From IMG/VR virus record IMGVR_UViG_3300012920_000222, positions 1 through 26,378 of that record: a DNA stretch of 26,378 bases. One strand, written 5' to 3'. The translations under genes were made by a program, and so were the position numbers. Under the pieces are notes generated by a model. It did not search any database. It was not told the origin of the DNA and saw only the letters and a list, made by a program, of their open reading frames with translations. The number at the start of each line of letters is the position of its first letter. Positions within the stretch are counted from its first letter, which is position 1. Origin of the DNA: a virus. Positions 6,794 through 26,079 of this stretch are shown in pieces.

Positions 6794-7459
<666 letters not shown>

Positions 7460-13135: not shown

Positions 13136-14050
13136 TTAAAACCACTCCTCCAATGTTGTTTGAATCTTACCTGTTCTAATACTTGAAATGTCCCAATCCA
13201 TAGCCTCATAAATCGGCTTTGCTTTTTTGATAATCTGTTCTGCATAATGCTCATATGCAGGAATACACTTATCAAAATCACTATTAATATTTCCTGCTAG
13301 AAATTCTACTGTTCTTCTTTCTTTTGTTAAAGGGTGAATATAGGTTTCGTTTAGTGGCTTGACTTTCATAAACAAATAAGAATCATCAAACTTATTCTCT
13401 CCCTTTTGCCAAGAATATAGAACCCCCGCTATTCCCGAACCTATTGAAGGTTTTTTCTTTTCAATTGTTAAAAAGGAACTTACGGGAGTTCCGCACTTAT
13501 GAGTTCCTGCTCTACCCTCATTTTCTCCACAAAATTCTATTTTGGTTAAGTCTTTAAGATGATACTTTCTTTTACAGTCTTGACATTGAACCATGAATCT
13601 AGATTCTTTTAGCCTACTTCTTTTTATGAGAAGAGAGTTATCTATTTCACCTTTCATGATAGACTTGTAAATATCGCTAAGATAATTATTGATTTCCTTT
13701 CTAGTGTTTTGTGTAGTCCACATCTTAAGCGCAGTTGTTTGAACATCTTTTTCTAATTGCGTAGCACTAACTCTTTTGGCAGTAAAGCCAGTCATTGTAA
13801 ATTCCGGCTCATCTAACCATTCACCGTCTTTCCATATAATCATCCCTGCGTTTCTGTTTTTAGTTGTTCCAACACCTAAAGAAGAATAGTATTTTTCAAA
13901 CTCTAATACAACCGGATGCTGTTTTAATCCCATAACATTAGGAAAATGCTCTCTTACACTAGATTCGATTTCTTTAATTGCTTTTTGTGCTTTTTCAACA
14001 GAATCTATTTTTACATAGATTGAATCTGTATGTCCGTAAACTACTTCCAT
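13136..14050 (-). CDS. polB: Family B DNA polymerase, C-terminal part (motif C, thumb, PIP tail)
   Basis: This encodes 304 residues from the ATG at 14050, starting MEVVYGHTDSIYVKID, so motif C is at residues 5-10. An in-frame ATG at 14101 would add 17 residues. I prefer 14050 because the 14101 start has no ribosome site and lies inside the upstream small gene, whereas AAGGA lies before 14050. FTAKR (near 90) is the KxY-like palm motif. Four cysteines in the thumb region (C156, C159, C174, C186) could hold zinc. The C-terminus QTTLEEWF (297-304) is a canonical PCNA-interacting peptide. The N-part with exonuclease, motif A and motif B is encoded at 15098-16750, so the two chains must join to make one polymerase, as known for the two-chain PolB of Methanothermobacter. 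The first aspartate of motif C is His; the second is kept. Confidence 0.88.
   Translation of the reverse strand: MEVVYGHTDSIYVKIDSVEKAQKAIKEIESSVREHFPNVMGLKQHPVVLEFEKYYSSLGVGTTKNRNAGMIIWKDGEWLDEPEFTMTGFTAKRVSATQLEKDVQTTALKMWTTQNTRKEINNYLSDIYKSIMKGEIDNSLLIKRSRLKESRFMVQCQDCKRKYHLKDLTKIEFCGENEGRAGTHKCGTPVSSFLTIEKKKPSIGSGIAGVLYSWQKGENKFDDSYLFMKVKPLNETYIHPLTKERRTVEFLAGNINSDFDKCIPAYEHYAEQIIKKAKPIYEAMDWDISSIRTGKIQTTLEEWF
14042..14050 (-). repeat. Nine-base repeat ATGGAAGTA, copy at the PolB C-part start
   Basis: These nine bases code the first three residues (MEV) of the PolB C-part and are identical to 15101-15109, which code the last three residues of the N-part. The bases on either side differ. 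The pair frames the block of small genes that separates the two halves. Confidence 0.7.
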
Positions 14051-14051
14051 T

Positions 14052-14198
14052 TTAACCAATCCTTTGATGTGTAATAATTCCAATTCTTTTGCCATTGACA
14101 TATAATGAGACTACATCATTATGAATCATGATAGTAGTGACATCATCTACATATCTTTTAGCCCAACCAATAAGTTCTTGTTGAGTTTTTTTATTCAT
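14052..14198 (-). CDS. 48-residue unrecognised protein before the PolB C-part
   Basis: An ATG overlapping the upstream stop (ATGA at 14195-14198) opens a 48-residue frame: MNKKTQQELIGWAKRYVDDV, then TTIMIHNDVVSLYVNGKRIG and IITHQRIG. It looks like one helix followed by a beta hairpin, with codon use like its neighbours. The stop lies one base before the ATG at 14050, leaving a tidy junction to the polymerase C-part. If the polymerase started at 14101 the two frames would overlap by 50 bases. No function can be assigned. Confidence 0.5.
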   Translation of the reverse strand: MNKKTQQELIGWAKRYVDDVTTIMIHNDVVSLYVNGKRIGIITHQRIG

Positions 14199-14966: not shown

Positions 14967-15101
14967 TTACAACCCCTTAGCCATTCTTTTTCGTTTTAAT
15001 TTCAATGACCCATATCTGCCTTTTCCATAGCATTCCCAACACAAAGGGCGACCAACATAACATAACTCGGATTCGTTTTTATTGCATACTATACATTTCA
15101 T
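14967..15101 (-). CDS. 44-residue zinc-knuckle protein at the PolB break
   Basis: The frame encodes MKCIVCNKNESELCYVGRPL, then CWECYGKGRYGSLKLKRKRM and AKGL. Cysteines 3, 6, 21 and 24 give CxxC-14-CxxC, a small zinc-binding unit, followed by a basic tail suited to nucleic-acid binding. Its ATG overlaps the stop of the polymerase N-part (ATGA at 15098-15101), so it is probably translated by ribosomes finishing that gene. It is the first gene of the block that separates the polymerase halves. Confidence 0.65.
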   Translation of the reverse strand: MKCIVCNKNESELCYVGRPLCWECYGKGRYGSLKLKRKRMAKGL

Positions 15102-16750
15102 ACTTCCATCTCCTTAGCCTTAAAAGCCGCTAATCTAATTGCTTCTCTAGCACTAGCAGTAATACTGGCCGCTAAATCTACATCAGCCCAACCAAATCCT
15201 TGAAATGCAACAATACCGTAGAAAGAACTCATTAGGCGCTTAACAGCCATTTGATTATTATACCACTTTTGATATTCTTCTTTGTTGTTTGCACTCTTCA
15301 TTCTTTTCTTGTAGTCATTTCTCAAATCTCTTAGTTCCATAACCGCTTTAGGTAATAATCCTAATTCATCCGTTTTGTAGTATAACATCTGCTTGCGTTC
15401 ATTTATACTAAAATCTCTAGGCGTTAGAATATTAACAGCGAATTCTGTAGGCTCTTTTGACTTAGTTTCCCAAGATATATTTCTAGCCATCATCATACTA
15501 GGATATAGTTGTGCATAATCAAATGCCGCTACATTATGATGTAGTCCTTGTGTTTGCTCACTTAATGGGTCATAAATCATGGCTCCGTCATAATCTTTTC
15601 TATCCACATTTTTATCTCCAGTGGGGGCTTTCCACCAAGCGTTTCTCATGAAGTAAATACTTCCCATATGAGAAGCATAAAAACATGCATCAAAAGGCGC
15701 TTTTAGTAATCTTTGAAGAGAGATAATTGCTTCGCTACAATAGTTTGTTTCATCAATTCTACGAATTAAATCTACATCAACCAAAGCATATTCAAGATAC
15801 ACTTCAGTATCTTCTAACCATGCTCTACGAAAGAACTCGTTTTTATCCTTAAATTTGCTTTCCTTTACTTTACCTTCATCAAATAATAATTGAGATACAT
15901 ATTCTAGAGACAAAGAAGGCAAAGTTCCTCTTTGTGAATCATTCCATTGTCTTTCAAATGCTAAATCAAGAGAAAGAGTTATGCGACCTCCTATTGGTTG
16001 TTCTATAGGAGTAAATCCTTTTTCAGCATAAGCAAAAGAAAAACCATCTTTAGCCTTCTTAACTCCCTTTACAGTAGCGATAGGAGACATTATCTGTGGG
16101 TCTAATCCTAATGCACATGCTCTTTTAATCAAATGGGGTAAATCAAACCGTTGTCCGAACCAAGCAATCAACATATCGGGGTCTTTTACAACCATAGTTG
16201 TCATAAAAGATTCAATCATATCTTTTTCATTATCAAAAACAAACTTATCAAAATCTCTTATGCCTCCTTCTAAAGACCATTGATAATCAGGAAACCATGC
16301 CCATTGATAGTATTGCTTATCGTAATTATCATACGCTACAATAGTAGTAATACAATCGTGATATTCTCCACCTTGTTGCCATTCCATATCCCAATACCAT
16401 TTTCTTAAATCATATTCGGGCATTTCATCAATACAATCAACTGCATATCTAAAATGAAATGGAACATCTGCTTCGTAAGTTCTCTTAAAACAATTTTTAG
16501 CACTTCTAATATCAAACGAATTTTCTACATAAACTCGCTTTAATGGCTTTTTATCTAGATTTAAAAAATCGCCCTTTTCATATTCAAAATTTCTTTCTAT
16601 ATACTTAGAGGGTTTATATGAAGAAATCTCTTTTGCTTTATCTAAAACATAGAAATAAGGTCTATGTTCAACAATAGAGTGTTTCTTTTCTTTACCTTCT
16701 CTCCAAGAAACATAAACACTTTTACCATCATTACATCTACTAATTATCAT
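15098..16750 (-). CDS. polB: Family B DNA polymerase, N-terminal part (exonuclease, motifs A and B)
   Basis: This encodes 550 residues from the ATG at 16750, preceded by GGTGGT at 5 bases; a TTG three bases further up is less likely. The proofreading domain has Exo I WDMEW (D121, E123), Exo II AWFGQRFDLPHL (D203, with Phe in place of the usual Asn) and Exo III YALVD (Y321, D325). Motif A is AAFDYAQLYPSMM (D411) and motif B is KRLMSSFYG (K504), where the usual Asn is Ser. The chain ends after SITASAREAIRLAAFKAKEM, EV, just before motif C would begin. The rest lies in the gene at 13136-14050. The clamp gene directly upstream shares one base with the start (TGATG). All metal-binding acids of both active sites are present across the two chains, so a working split polymerase is expected. 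Confidence 0.9.
   Translation of the reverse strand: MIISRCNDGKSVYVSWREGKEKKHSIVEHRPYFYVLDKAKEISSYKPSKYIERNFEYEKGDFLNLDKKPLKRVYVENSFDIRSAKNCFKRTYEADVPFHFRYAVDCIDEMPEYDLRKWYWDMEWQQGGEYHDCITTIVAYDNYDKQYYQWAWFPDYQWSLEGGIRDFDKFVFDNEKDMIESFMTTMVVKDPDMLIAWFGQRFDLPHLIKRACALGLDPQIMSPIATVKGVKKAKDGFSFAYAEKGFTPIEQPIGGRITLSLDLAFERQWNDSQRGTLPSLSLEYVSQLLFDEGKVKESKFKDKNEFFRRAWLEDTEVYLEYALVDVDLIRRIDETNYCSEAIISLQRLLKAPFDACFYASHMGSIYFMRNAWWKAPTGDKNVDRKDYDGAMIYDPLSEQTQGLHHNVAAFDYAQLYPSMMMARNISWETKSKEPTEFAVNILTPRDFSINERKQMLYYKTDELGLLPKAVMELRDLRNDYKKRMKSANNKEEYQKWYNNQMAVKRLMSSFYGIVAFQGFGWADVDLAASITASAREAIRLAAFKAKEMEV
15101..15109 (-). repeat. Nine-base repeat ATGGAAGTA, copy at the PolB N-part end
   Basis: These bases code the final Met-Glu-Val of the PolB N-part and repeat exactly the first nine bases of the C-part at 14042-14050. 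Removing one copy plus the sequence between would give an in-frame, uninterrupted polymerase reading AKEMEVVYGHTDS. Confidence 0.7.
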
Positions 16751-17523
16751 CAATTACCACCAACATGAGGTGCTTTCATCAACATTCTATCGTTTGCTAC
16801 CACCATCATGGGGAATTCATCTCTAACATAAAAATTCAATAGTTGGTCTTTCTTGAAGAAAGAATACAACGGAGAACTGAAATCTAATGTTGCTGATTCG
16901 CCATTAACAAAAACAGGGACAAGTGTTTCACTATATGCATTTGTGGCGTTAGCCGAAGAAGATATTGTTACTTCGCCTTGATGATAATTTAAATTATATA
17001 TCCCTTCACCAACTAATTCACAATTACGCAAACAATTTTGAAAGTCTTTTTGATTCAAAGAAAAACTACCTTCAAAGTTTAGATTACTAAATGTAAAAAG
17101 AGTATTTGGTTGAGGTTCATATCTTATGTGGTTGGTCATTTCTATTAACCTAGACAAGGCTTCTTCATGAGGATGATTCACTAATTTAGGAATATTCGCA
17201 TTCTTTCTACCATTAGAAATAAGTATGTAATCACCAACAGTAATAGTTACATTACCATCGAACGATTTTAGATACGGTAGAATAAGTGAAGCATCAGCGT
17301 TACAGGTTCCGGATTCATGACCTTCTGTAACAACCTCTAAGGCTATTTTCAGCATAAAGGTAGAATCACCGTTTGCTAAAAGTAGTTGGTTATCAACTAA
17401 GTTAGCAGTAAAGATTGAACCAAAACTACCGGAACTAAATCCGGTATTTGTTAGTTGCTTTCCTTTAACCTGTAGGCTTTCTAGTGCTTCTTTTAATTCA
17501 TTACTATCAACTTGAAACTTCAT
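16750..17523 (-). CDS. DNA sliding clamp (PCNA-like)
   Basis: This encodes 257 residues, a usual PCNA length. Features include MKFQVDSNELKEALESL at the start, a central YLKSFDGNVTITVGDYILI strand pair, and a C-terminal LLNFYVRDEFPMMVVANDRM with KAPHV, comparable to the final strands of sliding clamps. The sequence is divergent and some stretches also recall the bacterial beta clamp. Length and archaeal neighbours favour a trimeric PCNA-type ring. It would hold the PolB on DNA; PolB, the RFC-large-like protein and perhaps the ssDNA-binding protein carry matching PIP tails. It overlaps the ATPase gene before it by four bases and the polymerase by three. Confidence 0.75.
   Translation of the reverse strand: MKFQVDSNELKEALESLQVKGKQLTNTGFSSGSFGSIFTANLVDNQLLLANGDSTFMLKIALEVVTEGHESGTCNADASLILPYLKSFDGNVTITVGDYILISNGRKNANIPKLVNHPHEEALSRLIEMTNHIRYEPQPNTLFTFSNLNFEGSFSLNQKDFQNCLRNCELVGEGIYNLNYHQGEVTISSSANATNAYSETLVPVFVNGESATLDFSSPLYSFFKKDQLLNFYVRDEFPMMVVANDRMLMKAPHVGGN
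16756..16761 (-). promoter_or_regulatory. Shine-Dalgarno site that sets the PolB N-part start
   Basis: GGTGGT on the - strand lies five bases before the ATG at 16750, inside the end of the clamp gene. The spacing suits the ATG better than the TTG at 16753. Confidence 0.55.
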
Positions 17524-19958: not shown

Positions 19959-20870
19959 TTACAATAGTTGCCCCACCATCCATGATATTAACACTCTTGG
20001 GGTCATGCTATTGGAACGCCATTCTGTCTCTCCTACTGTTCTTAACAGTTTAAATTTCAACATCGTATCCAATCCCTCCGAATTGACGATGACATCGTGA
20101 AGACCGCTACAAATTTCTTTGACGGTTCTTCCTTGAAATAGTAAGTCATGTAGTTCACCTAGTAAATTTTGATTCTTATTTGTGATTTTAATTAGTAATT
20201 CATTGTATTCGCTTAGGGATACTTCGACTTGTTTTTTGAGTGTGCTGTTGCTAGATTTTGCGGCTTGTAATTCCGTGATTGCTCTCCGCATATCACCATT
20301 CATGGAGTATAAAAAGCCCCCTAAATCCTCGTCAGAAAATCTTGTGATATTTTCTTTTCTTAAAATCTCTTTTACCATATCTAACATTTTATTATTAGAT
20401 ATTGGTTTAAAGTGATAATTAGCACATCTACTTTGTAAAGCGAAGATTATCTTGTTCTTCTCATTACAAGTAATTATAAATCTAATATTAGAAGAATATC
20501 TTTCCATTATTCTTTTCAATGCTCCTTGTGCATCGGAAGTCATGTTTTCCATTTCATCAAGTAAACATATTCTAAAAGGAACATCTCCTAAAGAAGCACT
20601 TTGAGCGGCTTGTTTAATTGTAGTTCTAACCGTTTCTAATCTTCTATCATCACTGGCATTGATTTCAAAGAAATTGTCTTTGAATCCATCACCTAATATT
20701 TCTTTAGCAACAACTATTCCTGCTGTTGTTTTACCATTACCGGGATTACCGTATAATAATAAATTAGGCATATTGTTTTCTTCTTTCCATGATTGTGCAT
20801 CCATAACAAACTGTTCTTGTCCGTATATGTCTCCTATTCTTTGTGGTCTGTATTTTTCTGTCCATAACAT
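19959..20870 (-). CDS. rfcS: Clamp loader small subunit (RFC small subunit)
   Basis: This encodes 303 residues. All typical RFC boxes are present: LWTEKYRPQRIGDIYGQEQF at the start, Walker A YGNPGNGKTT (40-49), INASDDR (70-76), Walker B ICLLDEMENM (101-110), sensor 1 FIITCNEKNKI (131-141) and the arginine-finger SRC (147-149). Sensor 2 is near NGDMRRAI. The length is near the low end for archaeal RFC small subunits (about 320). It would load the clamp encoded at 16750-17523 with ATP. GGGGGT precedes the ATG. The gene two positions upstream in the operon is probably its large-subunit partner. Confidence 0.95.
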   Translation of the reverse strand: MLWTEKYRPQRIGDIYGQEQFVMDAQSWKEENNMPNLLLYGNPGNGKTTAGIVVAKEILGDGFKDNFFEINASDDRRLETVRTTIKQAAQSASLGDVPFRICLLDEMENMTSDAQGALKRIMERYSSNIRFIITCNEKNKIIFALQSRCANYHFKPISNNKMLDMVKEILRKENITRFSDEDLGGFLYSMNGDMRRAITELQAAKSSNSTLKKQVEVSLSEYNELLIKITNKNQNLLGELHDLLFQGRTVKEICSGLHDVIVNSEGLDTMLKFKLLRTVGETEWRSNSMTPRVLISWMVGQLL

Positions 20871-22011: not shown

Positions 22012-22406
22012 TATAATACACCTTTAATTTTCATTAGCATCTCTAACCCCTCTAGAGTTTTATGCTTATTTTTATTTATAATATCTACAATTTGTTTGAA
22101 TTCGTTTAAATCATTCCTATAATTAGGAACAATTGGTAATAAGTCACTTATTATCTTTAAGTTCACTATGCCAGTAATTTTTAAGACCGGGCTTTTTCTT
22201 CTGGAGGATTCCTCAGATTTCATTTTTGAAATAACTCCTAATTGTAATAATGAGCGTTTAACTGCAATTAAAAACAATTCATCTCCTCTAATACTTAAAG
22301 AAAAATTAACACTATAACCTAATTTAGCCCTTTCATTAGTATAAATGGTTAAGTTGTGTCTAGCAACTCCTAACAAAATACCTCTTAGTATATCGTTATT
22401 ATACAT
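22011..22406 (-). CDS. Degenerate LAGLIDADG-fold protein
   Basis: This encodes 131 residues, matching one LAGLIDADG domain in length. The signature helix is ILRGILLGVARHN (6-18): the small residues that pack the two helices are kept, but the acidic residue that holds the metal is gone. Downstream strands and helices fit too: LGYSVNFSLSIRGDELFLIA, KRSLLQLGVISKM, LKITGIVNLKIISDLL, and the typical end KHKTLEGLEMLM. It is free-standing, not inside an intein or intron. It is probably a domesticated homing-endonuclease relative that binds DNA without cutting it. The start follows TAATG-like overlaps with neighbours. The family call comes from the overall pattern of a degenerate motif, so moderate confidence. 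Confidence 0.5.
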   Translation of the reverse strand: MYNNDILRGILLGVARHNLTIYTNERAKLGYSVNFSLSIRGDELFLIAVKRSLLQLGVISKMKSEESSRRKSPVLKITGIVNLKIISDLLPIVPNYRNDLNEFKQIVDIINKNKHKTLEGLEMLMKIKGVL

Positions 22407-22773
22407 TACTTTCTACCTCTTTCGCTCCTAAGTAATCTACTTTGTAGCGTAGATAATCTAAACCGTCTAATATTATCCCTTTCACCATGTCTTCCATATC
22501 TTCTTTTGTAGCAAAAGCAAATGTAAGAACTGCTCCTCTAAATAGATTAAAAGCAACTGCTTTATTTTCATCTATTTCTTCAGCCGTAACTATGGCTTCT
22601 CCTTTAACTGGTAAATTTTCGAATTGAAAGAAAAGCCCCCTTGCTAACAAACTTATTTCTTCTTCATTGGGTAAACCATATACAAAGAAGCGATAAGTTT
22701 GGACGACTTCGTTAGAATTAATGAACTCCGCTAAACTATCTTCTACAATAGTGTCATTAGAGACAGTTACCAT
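22399..22773 (-). CDS. Unrecognised 124-residue protein
   Basis: The protein is acidic with mixed strands and helices (VVQTYRFFVYGLPNEEEISL, KGEAIVTAEEIDENKAVAFN, FRGAVLTFAFATKEDMEDMV). There are no cysteines or clear catalytic motif. GGTGATTAA lies directly before the ATG. The stop overlaps the LAGLIDADG-like start by eight bases. It lies between a histone-fold gene and the LAGLIDADG-like gene; beyond co-expression nothing is known. Confidence 0.55.
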   Translation of the reverse strand: MVTVSNDTIVEDSLAEFINSNEVVQTYRFFVYGLPNEEEISLLARGLFFQFENLPVKGEAIVTAEEIDENKAVAFNLFRGAVLTFAFATKEDMEDMVKGIILDGLDYLRYKVDYLGAKEVESNV

Positions 22774-23217
22774 TTAATCACCCCGAATATACCTTTCATT
22801 TTCCTTCCAATATCCCTCTACTACTTGGTTTGTTTCAAGCCAATGGATGTGTGCGGCAGTAATTCTAGAATGACCAAGCCTAATAGCGTTTTTCTCCGCA
22901 TTACTAACTACATTGGCAACTGCTGTCTCTAACCATTCCATCAAAAAGTTCTTTGCTGAACGAGATATTTGTAAATCAGTATTCTCTTTTATTAGAGAAG
23001 TAAGATTTACTTTACTTTTAGTTCTAGGCTTTTTTATTACTTCTTTTTCGGGAATAATTAATTGATTATCTTTGATGAAAGGGCATTCGTTCACTTTCAC
23101 TTTTTTAGCACGACCCTGTTCATGAAGAATATTTTTTAGATAAGCAAAACCATCTTCTATTTTTATACAAAGATAGGTAGTAGTTCCTATTATTGTTAAT
23201 TCACCCTGTTCAATCAT
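22774..23217 (-). CDS. Histone-fold protein with extra N-terminal domain
   Basis: This encodes 147 residues. Residues 70-127 fit the archaeal histone fold: helix 1 NLTSLIKENTD, loop and ISRSAKNFLMEWLETAVANV as long helix 2, SNAEKNAIRLGHSRITAAHI as the end of helix 2, loop 2 and helix 3. The spacing and the GHSRITAAHI motif agree with the GRKTIKAEDI motif of archaeal histones. Residues 1-55 are a small beta-rich domain (TIIGTTTYLCIKIEDGFAYL) and 56-68 a basic linker (KEVIKKPRTKSK). It would bind or wrap DNA, either compacting viral genomes or altering host chromatin, or act as a transcription factor of the NF-Y/TAF type. The start overlaps the ligase stop (ATGA). Fold call is from pattern, no structure test. 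Confidence 0.65.
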   Translation of the reverse strand: MIEQGELTIIGTTTYLCIKIEDGFAYLKNILHEQGRAKKVKVNECPFIKDNQLIIPEKEVIKKPRTKSKVNLTSLIKENTDLQISRSAKNFLMEWLETAVANVVSNAEKNAIRLGHSRITAAHIHWLETNQVVEGYWKENERYIRGD

Positions 23218-24743
23218 TCTAATGCCTCTACATCTTCTAATGTATTAATATCAGCAACAAACTTATCATCTCTAATTCTTTTACATCTAGGGAATCTAAG
23301 TCCTAGATTATCTTTAGCATCTCTACTAACTAAATCTGCCGATACTTCTAATACAACAACTGGTGATACATTGTAATTACCTCCTTCATAAGTTTCGACA
23401 TTTCTTCTTAATGTATTAGTCAAGAATATTAAATCAGCATCACTAAATCCTGTTCCAACAGAACCAACGCCTACGAATCCTTTAGGGCTAGATACAGCAA
23501 TATCAAAAGAAGCGAATACATTTGCTTTAGCACCATCACCATATCTAGCAGAAGTAATAACTACATCTAACTCAATACGGGGAGGTTTGTATTTAGCCCA
23601 ACCTATACTTCTTTTACCTGCTTCGTAAGCCATTGAAGCATCTTTTACTATAATACCTTCAAACCCATCATTAATCGCTCTATTATAGAATGCTAGAACA
23701 TCTCCACCAACTTCCATTCTATGTGCTTGGTCGGGTAGGTCTTCAAAACAAAGCAATCTTTCATGGTAAGGTAAATCCATAATGGTCTTATTTCCTATCT
23801 TAAGGCAATCAAATATAACCCACTTGACTTTCACCTTCTCTCTTGCTTCTGCATGGTCTTTAGAGTGAACTCTTGTTCCCATTAGTTTATGTTCAGCAGG
23901 TGAGCCGTCTTCATTAATAGGATATATTTCACCATCAAGAATACAATTTTGCACACCATAACTTCTAATTCTTTCAACAACATCTTGAAACTGTGGAGTA
24001 ACAATAGAACCTTTACGATTGAAGATAATCACATTGTCTTCTTGTTTGTGTATTTGGTATCTATTACCATCATACTTGTAGTCTACAATCTTATTCTCCG
24101 GCCATTTATTCATAGGAACTTCTTTCGCTAACATTGGTTTTACAAAAGTTCCATGTGATAAATTACAAGGAGGCTCTTCTTTCATTTCGTAGTATCTAAC
24201 TACATTCTCTACGCTATTAAAATTAAGATGCTTCTTGACTTCTGCTAGTTTCTTTTTGTAATTCTTAGCGATAACTTTCTTTACTAAACCTTCATTAATG
24301 CCATGTCTAGGTGTCTTCAGCCAATATCGAATAAACCACTTTCTTTCTAAAGAAGACATTTTAAGAATAGAAGTTTTAATCAGTTCAAATTCTTTTGAAT
24401 TCAATCTAGAGGCATCTAACTCCAGTAGTTTAACAATACTATTGAGAGTGTATCTTCCTTCACTTTCAGCAGAATAGTCTAGATAATAAATCGCATCACC
24501 TAAATCATTCATATGAGCGATATATTGGCCTTCTATTTCATCTTCGAATACATCAAAGATATTGGCTAACCATTTCTTAGCCCTTGCTAAACCAATATTA
24601 TTAGACTCATAATCTAATGAAAGTATCTTTAGAAATAACGGAGCATCGAACTCCGATAAATCAGTTGCTATTCTTTTTACTATTGTAGTAGGTATTCCGT
24701 TTTCAGTTGCTTCAAGTAATCTACTCGCTTTCTCCCAAGTCAT
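23214..24743 (-). CDS. lig: ATP-dependent DNA ligase
   Basis: This encodes 509 residues. The nucleotidyltransferase core starts with the active-site lysine in VDYKYDGNRYQIHK (K223, R228). Motif III is LDGEIYP (E272), IIIa is WVIFDCL (308-314), IV is FEGIIVKD (361-368) and V is GWAKYKPPR (381-389). The N-terminal 200 residues are the helical DNA-binding domain of archaeal/eukaryotic-type ligases (WFIRYWLKTPRHGINEGLVK). An OB-fold with VGVGSVGTGFSDADL follows the core. All catalytic residues are present and the length is near the archaeal norm of 550-600, slightly short. It would seal Okazaki fragments and repair nicks, using ATP. The ATG has GGTGAT five bases upstream. Confidence 0.96.
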   Translation of the reverse strand: MTWEKASRLLEATENGIPTTIVKRIATDLSEFDAPLFLKILSLDYESNNIGLARAKKWLANIFDVFEDEIEGQYIAHMNDLGDAIYYLDYSAESEGRYTLNSIVKLLELDASRLNSKEFELIKTSILKMSSLERKWFIRYWLKTPRHGINEGLVKKVIAKNYKKKLAEVKKHLNFNSVENVVRYYEMKEEPPCNLSHGTFVKPMLAKEVPMNKWPENKIVDYKYDGNRYQIHKQEDNVIIFNRKGSIVTPQFQDVVERIRSYGVQNCILDGEIYPINEDGSPAEHKLMGTRVHSKDHAEAREKVKVKWVIFDCLKIGNKTIMDLPYHERLLCFEDLPDQAHRMEVGGDVLAFYNRAINDGFEGIIVKDASMAYEAGKRSIGWAKYKPPRIELDVVITSARYGDGAKANVFASFDIAVSSPKGFVGVGSVGTGFSDADLIFLTNTLRRNVETYEGGNYNVSPVVVLEVSADLVSRDAKDNLGLRFPRCKRIRDDKFVADINTLEDVEALE

Positions 24744-24870: not shown

Positions 24871-25207
24871 CTGTTCCACCATCTAGTTTAGATAGAAGAC
24901 GCAAGAAGTTTTGCATCATCATGCTTACAACTTCAATTTCTTCTTCTGCTCCCATCTCTATGAAACGGTGTAACATATGAATTAATGATGCTTGTGTCAT
25001 AGCAGGGGCTAATTTAGCCAAACTACCATTACCGTATATTTCCCAATAACAAACAAAAGCCGCTTTTGGTAAATAACTAGCATTCACTACTTCACTATAA
25101 CCACTAACGAAGTGTTCTAAAGCCGCACCTTTTAGTTTCTTTTGTAATTTTTTACGCCATTCTTCAAATTTTTTACTGTTTACTGTTGTTAAATATATTT
25201 TATTCAT
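24857..25207 (-). CDS. Unrecognised helical protein, 116 residues
   Basis: A basic amphipathic N-terminus (SKKFEEWRKKLQKKLKG) is followed by alanine-rich helices (SYLPKAAFVCYWEIYGNG, PAMTQASLIHMLHRFIEMGA, VVSMMMQNFLRLLSKLD) and an acidic end GGTDEEE. It is probably an all-helical bundle; the methionine content is high. It overlaps the upstream gene by four bases (ATGA). No family recognised. It is one of three early-operon small proteins with acidic EEE ends or helical folds, lying just before the ligase. Confidence 0.55.
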   Translation of the reverse strand: MNKIYLTTVNSKKFEEWRKKLQKKLKGAALEHFVSGYSEVVNASYLPKAAFVCYWEIYGNGSLAKLAPAMTQASLIHMLHRFIEMGAEEEIEVVSMMMQNFLRLLSKLDGGTDEEE

Positions 25208-25482
25208 TCTTCTTCATCTCCTTCATTTATATCTATAAATTCTCTCATGGCAATATACATCTTATTGAAAGTATTTTCAACATGATGCTCATGTAATCTA
25301 CTACCTCTTCCTGTTTTTGGATAGGACTTTTCTACAAATAGACAGAATAATTCTACTATCTTGTAAGAACATTCTGCTGTTTTAGTAATTGCATCGGCTG
25401 TCATGCTCCTGCCTTTGTTATTATTTTTAATAGCGGCTTGTCTTAGTGCCGCTTCTGCATGTTTCTTTAGAATTCTACTCAT
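25204..25482 (-). CDS. Possible second histone-fold protein, 92 residues
   Basis: Residues 8-22 (HAEAALRQAAIKNNN) could be helix 1, MTADAITKTAECSYKIVELF at 27-46 the long helix 2 (continuing CLFVEKSY), GRGSRL loop 2 and HEHHVENTFNKM (65-76) helix 3. The long amphipathic helix, basic loop and short helix match the histone or TAF layout, and the HVENTF end recalls the VE.A pattern of such folds. The C-terminus is acidic (NEGDEEE). With the clearer histone-fold gene at 22774-23217 it might form a heterodimer. This is an inference from pattern and weaker than for the other gene. It overlaps both neighbours by a few bases. Confidence 0.4.
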   Translation of the reverse strand: MSRILKKHAEAALRQAAIKNNNKGRSMTADAITKTAECSYKIVELFCLFVEKSYPKTGRGSRLHEHHVENTFNKMYIAMREFIDINEGDEEE

Positions 25483-25693
25483 CTAATTCCCTCTTTAGTA
25501 TATCTAGCAGTTTCTTTGCTTCTTCTTTATTCAATCTAATTCCTTTGTAAGAAGGTTTATTGTTTGCATACCATCTAATATCTACAACATCAATCATTCT
25601 ATATGTTCCTACATTAACTAGAACTTCTTGTATTGCGTTTCTAGGTATTCTTCCTACAATCTCTAATCCTTTACTATCACTCAACTCATCCAC
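25475..25693 (-). CDS. PC4-like ssDNA-binding transcription cofactor
   Basis: This encodes 72 residues, the size of a lone PC4 domain. The sequence pattern IPRNAIQEVLVNVGTYRMID, VVDIRWYANNKPSYKGIRLN and a C-terminal helix EEAKKLLDILKREL follows the PC4 layout: strand, strand with VDIR.WY, P..KGI.L and helix. Such proteins dimerise and bind ssDNA or melted promoters. The start is a GTG at 25693, or perhaps the TTG at 25684, for which GGGGTGGAT would serve as ribosome site. The upstream stop overlaps by 13 bases. It could assist viral transcription or coat ssDNA at the fork. Confidence 0.65.
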   Translation of the reverse strand: MDELSDSKGLEIVGRIPRNAIQEVLVNVGTYRMIDVVDIRWYANNKPSYKGIRLNKEEAKKLLDILKRELDE

Positions 25694-26079
25694 CCCTGTT
25701 TGAATTTCTCTAATTCTTGTCTTGAAGTAAAGTATCTAGGAGTATCTAATTTATCTAAACGATTAACCACCCAACAAGCACCTCCAAGAGAAGATACTTG
25801 AACAATCTCAAACTGTCCGTCATTTACTTCTAATACTTCTCTAGTTTGTATTTCCGGTGTTAATCCATATTTCTTAGTTATTTCACTAGCAACCTCATGA
25901 ATATTATCTACAACATATTTGATAATATGCGCTCTTTGTATTGGTATCTTGGGAGCAACATCAATCTTAATTGAACCGGACATATTACAGACTATACATT
26001 TGTTACCTTTACAAATAGGACATTGAATTTGTGCTTTGTGTGGTGCAGGTAATGTTACCGTTACTGCTTTTTTCTTCAT
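25681..26079 (-). CDS. Zinc-finger protein, 132 residues
   Basis: Residues 20-31 (CPICKGNKCIVC) carry CPIC and CIVC, a compact pair of zinc knuckles like half of a DnaJ-type finger. The rest (DNIHEVASEITKKYGLTPEI, EVLEVNDGQFEIVQVSSLGG, ACWVVNRLDKLDTPRYFTSR) is a mixed alpha/beta domain not recognised. GGTGA lies before the ATG. The start overlaps the upstream tiny zinc-ribbon gene (ATGA). Possible nucleic-acid binder; no specific function. Confidence 0.6.
   Translation of the reverse strand: MKKKAVTVTLPAPHKAQIQCPICKGNKCIVCNMSGSIKIDVAPKIPIQRAHIIKYVVDNIHEVASEITKKYGLTPEIQTREVLEVNDGQFEIVQVSSLGGACWVVNRLDKLDTPRYFTSRQELEKFKQGWMS

Follow-up and report, generated by a model that had tools for sequence, protein, structure and literature searches.

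A predicted histone-fold protein with a new domain arrangement encoded beside the DNA ligase of magrovirus-like viruses

The locus and its viral setting

The window, that is, the whole stretch of DNA analysed here, is a 26,378-base virus contig (IMG/VR record IMGVR_UViG_3300012920_000222). Its tail genes lie on one strand and a replication module on the other. The module comprises a family B DNA polymerase divided between two genes, a PCNA-like clamp, a Sak4-like ATPase, the small subunit of replication factor C (RFC), primase- and nuclease-like genes and an ATP-dependent DNA ligase. The ligase is flanked by two small genes with predicted histone folds, referred to below as family A and family B (the latter unrelated in name to the polymerase family).

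19959-20870, minus strand: RFC small subunit, in the same operon direction, given for context
22774-23217, minus strand: family A gene, ATG start, 147 residues; predicted beta domain, basic linker and C-terminal histone fold
23053-23217, minus strand: N-terminal domain of A (residues 1-55), six predicted strands with SH3/KOW-like topology
23005-23052, minus strand: basic linker of A (residues 56-71), net charge +4
22837-23004, minus strand: histone fold of A (residues 72-127), with helices 72-79 and 86-113 and a very short helix 121-123, placed by profile, AlphaFold2 and superposition
22846-22875, minus strand: loop 2/helix 3 of A (GHSRITAAHI, residues 115-124), where T54 of HMfB is replaced by R and D59 by H
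22777-22836, minus strand: C-terminal tail of A (residues 128-147), in which G-x-W (G135, W137) is conserved and a short helix 138-145 is predicted
23214-24743, minus strand: ATP-dependent DNA ligase, with B on one side and A on the other; the ligase stop and the start of A overlap (ATGA)
25204-25482, minus strand: family B gene, a stand-alone predicted histone fold of 92 residues with an acidic tail, upstream of the ligase
25279-25308, minus strand: loop 2/helix 3 of B (RGSRLHEHHV, residues 59-68), with the pattern R-hydrophobic-x3-[HD]-hydrophobic as in A

The sequence-only reading had placed a virus-encoded histone-fold gene next to the DNA ligase, and the family A open reading frame has the coordinates given there and does adjoin the ligase, its start overlapping the ligase stop by 4 bases; start-on-stop overlaps are found among the genes of the window. 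Family A is a real, protein-coding and conserved gene. Between the window and the sister locus L003 it is under purifying selection (dN 0.07, dS 0.64). Relatives gathered by protein scans and ligase-anchored scans of IMG/VR amount to 165 family A ORFs in viral contigs, 98 of them unique, overlapping loci being counted more than once among the 165; the suggested search for conservation in sister viruses thus gave a clear answer. A ligase was present within 1.5 kb upstream of A in all 154 loci with a visible flank, a set that includes loci fetched via the ligase, the rest having been found through A itself, and no other context was found. Among 16 large magrovirus-like records, A was found in 11 and was absent from 5, and B was found in 14. 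A tblastn search of a phage collection with A gave no relative, a PHROGs search gave no meaningful match, and Foldseek against viral models left the two-domain protein unmatched as a whole.

Two large records stand out. IMGVR_UViG_3300021958_000021 (L213/G027, 184,733 bases) is twice the usual genome size and contains two different copies each of A and B about 90 kb apart; it probably represents two magrovirus-like genomes joined in assembly. In the magrovirus-like record L052/G006 (85,884 bases), neither A nor B was detected with their profiles.

Magrovirales have been described as tailed viruses of marine Poseidoniales (PMC10768690, PMC12999244). The gene content of the window and its sisters fits this description, and it is on gene content that the magrovirus-like assignment rests. 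The sister contigs of 76-97 kb also carry GroEL, and a TFB-like gene is present at least in L006 (1451-2314). Together with the split polymerase, the PCNA-like and RFC genes, the ligase and the tail genes, this agrees with the earlier attribution of the protein to an archaeal tailed virus. The two parts of the family B DNA polymerase (13136-14101 and 15098-16753, minus strand) are separated by about 1 kb that holds several tiny ORFs, and match consecutive stretches of phrog_262 (17-560 and 572-726); PolB-NTD and PolB-CTD labels also appear in the ICTV profile of Aoguangviridae.

Several further genes were observed. The conserved gene that follows A (22399-22773, minus strand; VQTYRFFVYG...) has no family match, and its homologues directly follow the ligase in many clades without A. 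The product of 25681-26079 (minus strand), small and conserved, has paired CxxC motifs (CPICKGNKCIVC) and probably binds zinc, and a gene adjoining the tail-like genes (6794-7459, plus strand) has a run of 13 glycines near the protein start. Magrovirus-like RFC genes with 70% and 54% identity were found in L108 and L109 (NZMJ01000161.1 and NZMJ01000151.1), which are filed under the Maricaulis MAG IN14 and are probably viral contigs misbinned into it. A scan of the genome collection with the ligase profile found nothing, and the corresponding scan with RFC returned mainly cellular archaeal RFC loci, with no Poseidoniales among them.

Evidence for the histone fold of family A

With the window protein alone, the matches to histones are weak (PF00125, E 0.054; NF043032, E 0.0049; PDB 8bdk, E 0.16) and lie below the PF00808 cut-off. 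A histone claim is therefore unsafe from this one sequence, but it is safe with the family. Against the PDB, the best match of the family A profile is 8bdk, the archaeal histone MJ1647/HmvA (E 8.3e-7, positions 70-127), and most of the matches after it are further histone-fold chains, NF-YB and NC2-beta among them. This is the outcome of the profile search against archaeal histones and NF-Y-type families that had been proposed as a check. PF00808 is matched by 23 of 38 family members, and two sister-virus proteins pass its curated cut-off of 21.4 bits (24.2 and 21.6 bits). When the family A profile was applied to the loci of 16 archaeal histones, all 16 ranked above every other ORF and aligned in one register. 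A profile-profile comparison of A with the same 16 histones yielded a probability of 90.5% and a score of 39.5, compared with a maximum of 16.6 in 100 column-shuffled controls.

The AlphaFold2 model of A has a mean pLDDT of 83 and contains the three helices listed above. Helix 2 is long, with 28 residues, and helix 3 has three residues at a pLDDT of about 70. Superposition of the model on HMfA covers 60 residues at 1.6 Å, and the CHRAC histone-fold chain 2bym_B fits at 1.3 Å over 54 columns, with middling structural scores (Z about 6-7). The fold, whose absence from a predicted structure had been named as evidence against the claim, is present in the model.

Given the family profile, the PF00808 matches, the ranking of archaeal histones, the shuffled controls and the model, residues about 70-127 of A are a histone fold as far as computation can establish one. 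The sequence-only reading had seen the whole fold in this region; the profile, PF00808 and the model support that, except that helix 3 is very short and predicted with lower confidence. That the likeness is a chance resemblance of a short-long-short helical protein is hardly credible. The single-sequence E-values are weak and chance alone can give helical proteins Z-scores of 6-7, but such a coincidence is largely refuted by a family profile that puts MJ1647 first (E 8e-7), two members above the PF00808 cut-off, the single register of all 16 archaeal histones and a score far above the shuffled controls.

Domain organisation, DNA-contact residues and family B

Residues 1-55 are suggested by the model to form a separate beta domain with the topology of an SH3-like barrel (pLDDT 84-90), in which G35 and P46 are invariant and R36 is conserved in 36 of 38 members. 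The domain, predicted as part of the whole protein, aligns with Spt5/DSIF KOW chains with a Z-score of about 6 over 54 residues at 3.3 Å. PF00467 (KOW) went unmatched at E 10 across 11 sister genomes, whereas the controls were positive in 14 of 14 cases, and a profile search of the N-terminal domain gave no sequence support for KOW. KOW membership by sequence was accordingly rejected, and since the domain was also predicted only within the whole protein, it is the topology alone that is suggested. A single, weak NCBIfam match to a NusG-like family (UpxY), absent from ten members that were re-scanned, was likewise discarded. Of the new beta-rich domain and basic linker described in the sequence-only reading, the linker was recovered with its net positive charge, and the domain is separate, beta and new by sequence, although in predicted topology it is similar to the SH3-like barrels of KOW domains.

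Canonical archaeal histones hold DNA through the loop 1 (L1) arginine, its RT pair and the R-D clamp (PMC13260811, PMC10516927). At the position equivalent to R19 of HMfB, the L1 arginine, none of 38 family A members has arginine, all 38 having Q, P, S, V or K. The R-D clamp (R52-D59) is also lost, with no arginine at the R52 position and histidine at the D59 position in 36 of 38. Judged by these residues, A is not a canonical nucleosomal archaeal histone, as it lacks both the L1 arginine/RT pair and the R-D clamp. Net charge averages about -0.8 across the family; the protein encoded in the window is basic, with a pI of 8.8. The lost wrapping residues, the near-neutral family charge and the absence of A from 5 of the 16 large records speak against A simply being a histone that packs the genome.

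The family B gene had escaped the sequence-only reading. Its AlphaFold2 model has a pLDDT of 92 and helices at residues 6-19, 29-53 and 65-91, and histone-fold chains are its closest matches in structure, MHF and H3 first and an Asgard histone among them. By sequence, the top PDB match was MJ1647 at E 0.3, and a Pfam search with B gave no histone match. In profile-profile comparisons, B scored barely above the shuffled maximum against archaeal histones (15.7 vs 15.2) and moderately above it against A (23.2 vs 17.6). Family B is thus predicted to be a histone fold, confidently as a model and with weak support from sequence. The loop-2 motif R-hydrophobic-x3-[HD]-hydrophobic is common to both families, its strict form occurring in 72 of 97 A and 66 of 77 B sequences, compared with about 1-2% by chance. 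Arginine is present in B at the L1 position in 39 of 40 members and at the L2 position in 35 of 40.

In 64 loci with both flanks visible, B is commoner than A (56 vs 40): both genes occur in 37, B alone in 19, A alone in 3 and neither in 5, with the two replacement ORFs of L006 and L010, described below, entered as B. The co-occurrence is not significant (Fisher p 0.14), and the clades are not independent. Pairing of A and B is therefore not obligate, and the idea of an obligate pair was rejected on the 19 B-only and 3 A-only loci. In the group of L006 (6225-6473) and L010 (1922-2170), the place of B is occupied by an 82-residue ORF of different sequence, unmatched by the B profile and histone-like by eye, with a long helix followed by KLKKHHAQRAI.

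Related histone-fold systems and possible roles

The closest solved relative of A, MJ1647/HmvA of Methanococcales (PDB 8bdk; PMC10516927), shares with it a similar loop 1 (TDLQIS in A, TDFNIS in MJ1647) and AExNA at the end of helix 2, and both are divergent from canonical archaeal histones. MJ1647 is a cellular tetramer with a C-terminal two-helix tetramerisation module of about 27 residues (PMC10516927), whereas in A the extra domain is N-terminal and beta, helix 3 is very short and the R-D clamp is missing. The tail after its fold, of about 20 residues with one short helix, is not such a module. HMfA and HMfB (PF00808) have the same fold as A in the same profile register, but A is a two-domain protein of near-neutral family charge without the L1 arginine and the clamp. 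The alpha3-family histones of bacterial phages combine an N-terminal histone fold with a C-terminal helical tetramerisation domain (Schwab et al., PMC11390915). They resemble A in being encoded by tailed viruses and in their short helix 3, whereas A has the reverse domain order with a beta N-terminal domain and falls outside that class. In alpha3-truncated histones, helix 3 has 3-4 residues and helix 2 is shortened by 4-5, compared with a three-residue helix 3 at a pLDDT of about 70 and a long, 28-residue helix 2 in the model of A. Giant viruses (Marseilleviridae, Medusavirus) encode homologues of core histones, which form nucleosomes; A and B are virus-encoded histone folds too, but by sequence and model they appear to resemble archaeal-type folds instead. 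POLE3-POLE4/Dpb3-Dpb4/CHRAC and CENP-S-CENP-X/MHF are small, non-nucleosomal eukaryotic histone-fold pairs acting in replication or repair. The former (CHRAC, 2bym) is a structural neighbour of A and MHF one of B, but these are eukaryotic proteins, and the likeness is drawn as an analogy in working, not as a relationship by sequence.

The ligase that adjoins A in every visible context, and the operon shared with polymerase, clamp and clamp loader, suggest a role in replication, although operon position is no proof of a replisome role. The most likely reading, at about even odds, is that A serves the viral replication module as a DNA-binding histone-fold accessory and is not a histone for bulk packaging. 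Such a protein would dimerise through its histone fold, with itself or with B, and would bind double-stranded viral DNA during replication, as eukaryotic histone-fold accessory pairs do, and docking to the replisome, ligase or RNA polymerase would fall to the beta domain. The DNA sites of a histone handshake each combine L1 of one subunit with L2 of its partner; an A-B dimer could thus possess one complete DNA site. The DNA contacts of the two families look complementary in this respect, and if the two proteins pair, the loop-1 arginine missing from A would come from B. More tentatively, and less likely than not, the two proteins encoded on either side of the ligase in magrovirus-like viruses may form a virus-specific heterodimer on replicating DNA, the archaeal viruses' counterpart of POLE3-POLE4 or CENP-S-CENP-X.

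Other roles were weighed against an accessory of replication. Viral chromatin, in which A, alone or together with B, would wrap or bridge the genome inside infected cells or virions much as MJ1647 bridges DNA or giant-virus histones build nucleosomes, appears unlikely. Kinship with the DNA-bridging MJ1647/HmvA (PMC10516927), the similar loop 1 and AExNA stretch, and the basic pI of the window's own protein would suit such viral chromatin, but the RT pair and clamp used for wrapping are lost, the mean net charge of the family is near neutral, A is missing from 5 large records and has no MJ1647-type tail, and its gene sits among replication rather than virion genes. An NF-Y/NC2-like transcription factor, with a KOW-like domain that touches RNA polymerase and switches host or viral transcription, is quite unlikely. 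The NF-YB and NC2-beta chains among the profile matches, the alignment of the N-terminal domain with Spt5/DSIF chains and the TFB-like gene of a sister virus point towards it; against this, A has no KOW sequence match, the SH3-like barrel is a common shape, and no link to transcription genes exists in the window.

It is very improbable that A acts against host chromatin by forming heterodimers with host histone-fold proteins and so capping or poisoning them. Histone folds heterodimerise readily, and the lost DNA contacts of A would suit a dominant-negative partner, yet its gene is placed with replication genes. Moreover, Poseidoniales, the reported magrovirus hosts, are reported to have unusual acidic four-fold histones that are themselves suspected not to bind DNA (PMC13260811). 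As described, these host histones are quite unlike A and B.

By sequence and model, A is a genuine but derived histone-fold protein with a domain arrangement that is new. Viral histones have so far been discussed mainly for giant viruses and recently for some bacterial phages; in the open-access articles searched, none was described in magroviruses, the one joint mention being incidental. A conserved family A in marine archaeal tailed viruses, often paired with B, widens the known range of viral histones, and its place beside a replication ligase suggests that the histone fold is used in viral replication rather than packaging. As judged from sequences and models, many sister viruses seem to encode, within the replication operon, histone-like proteins for handling DNA.
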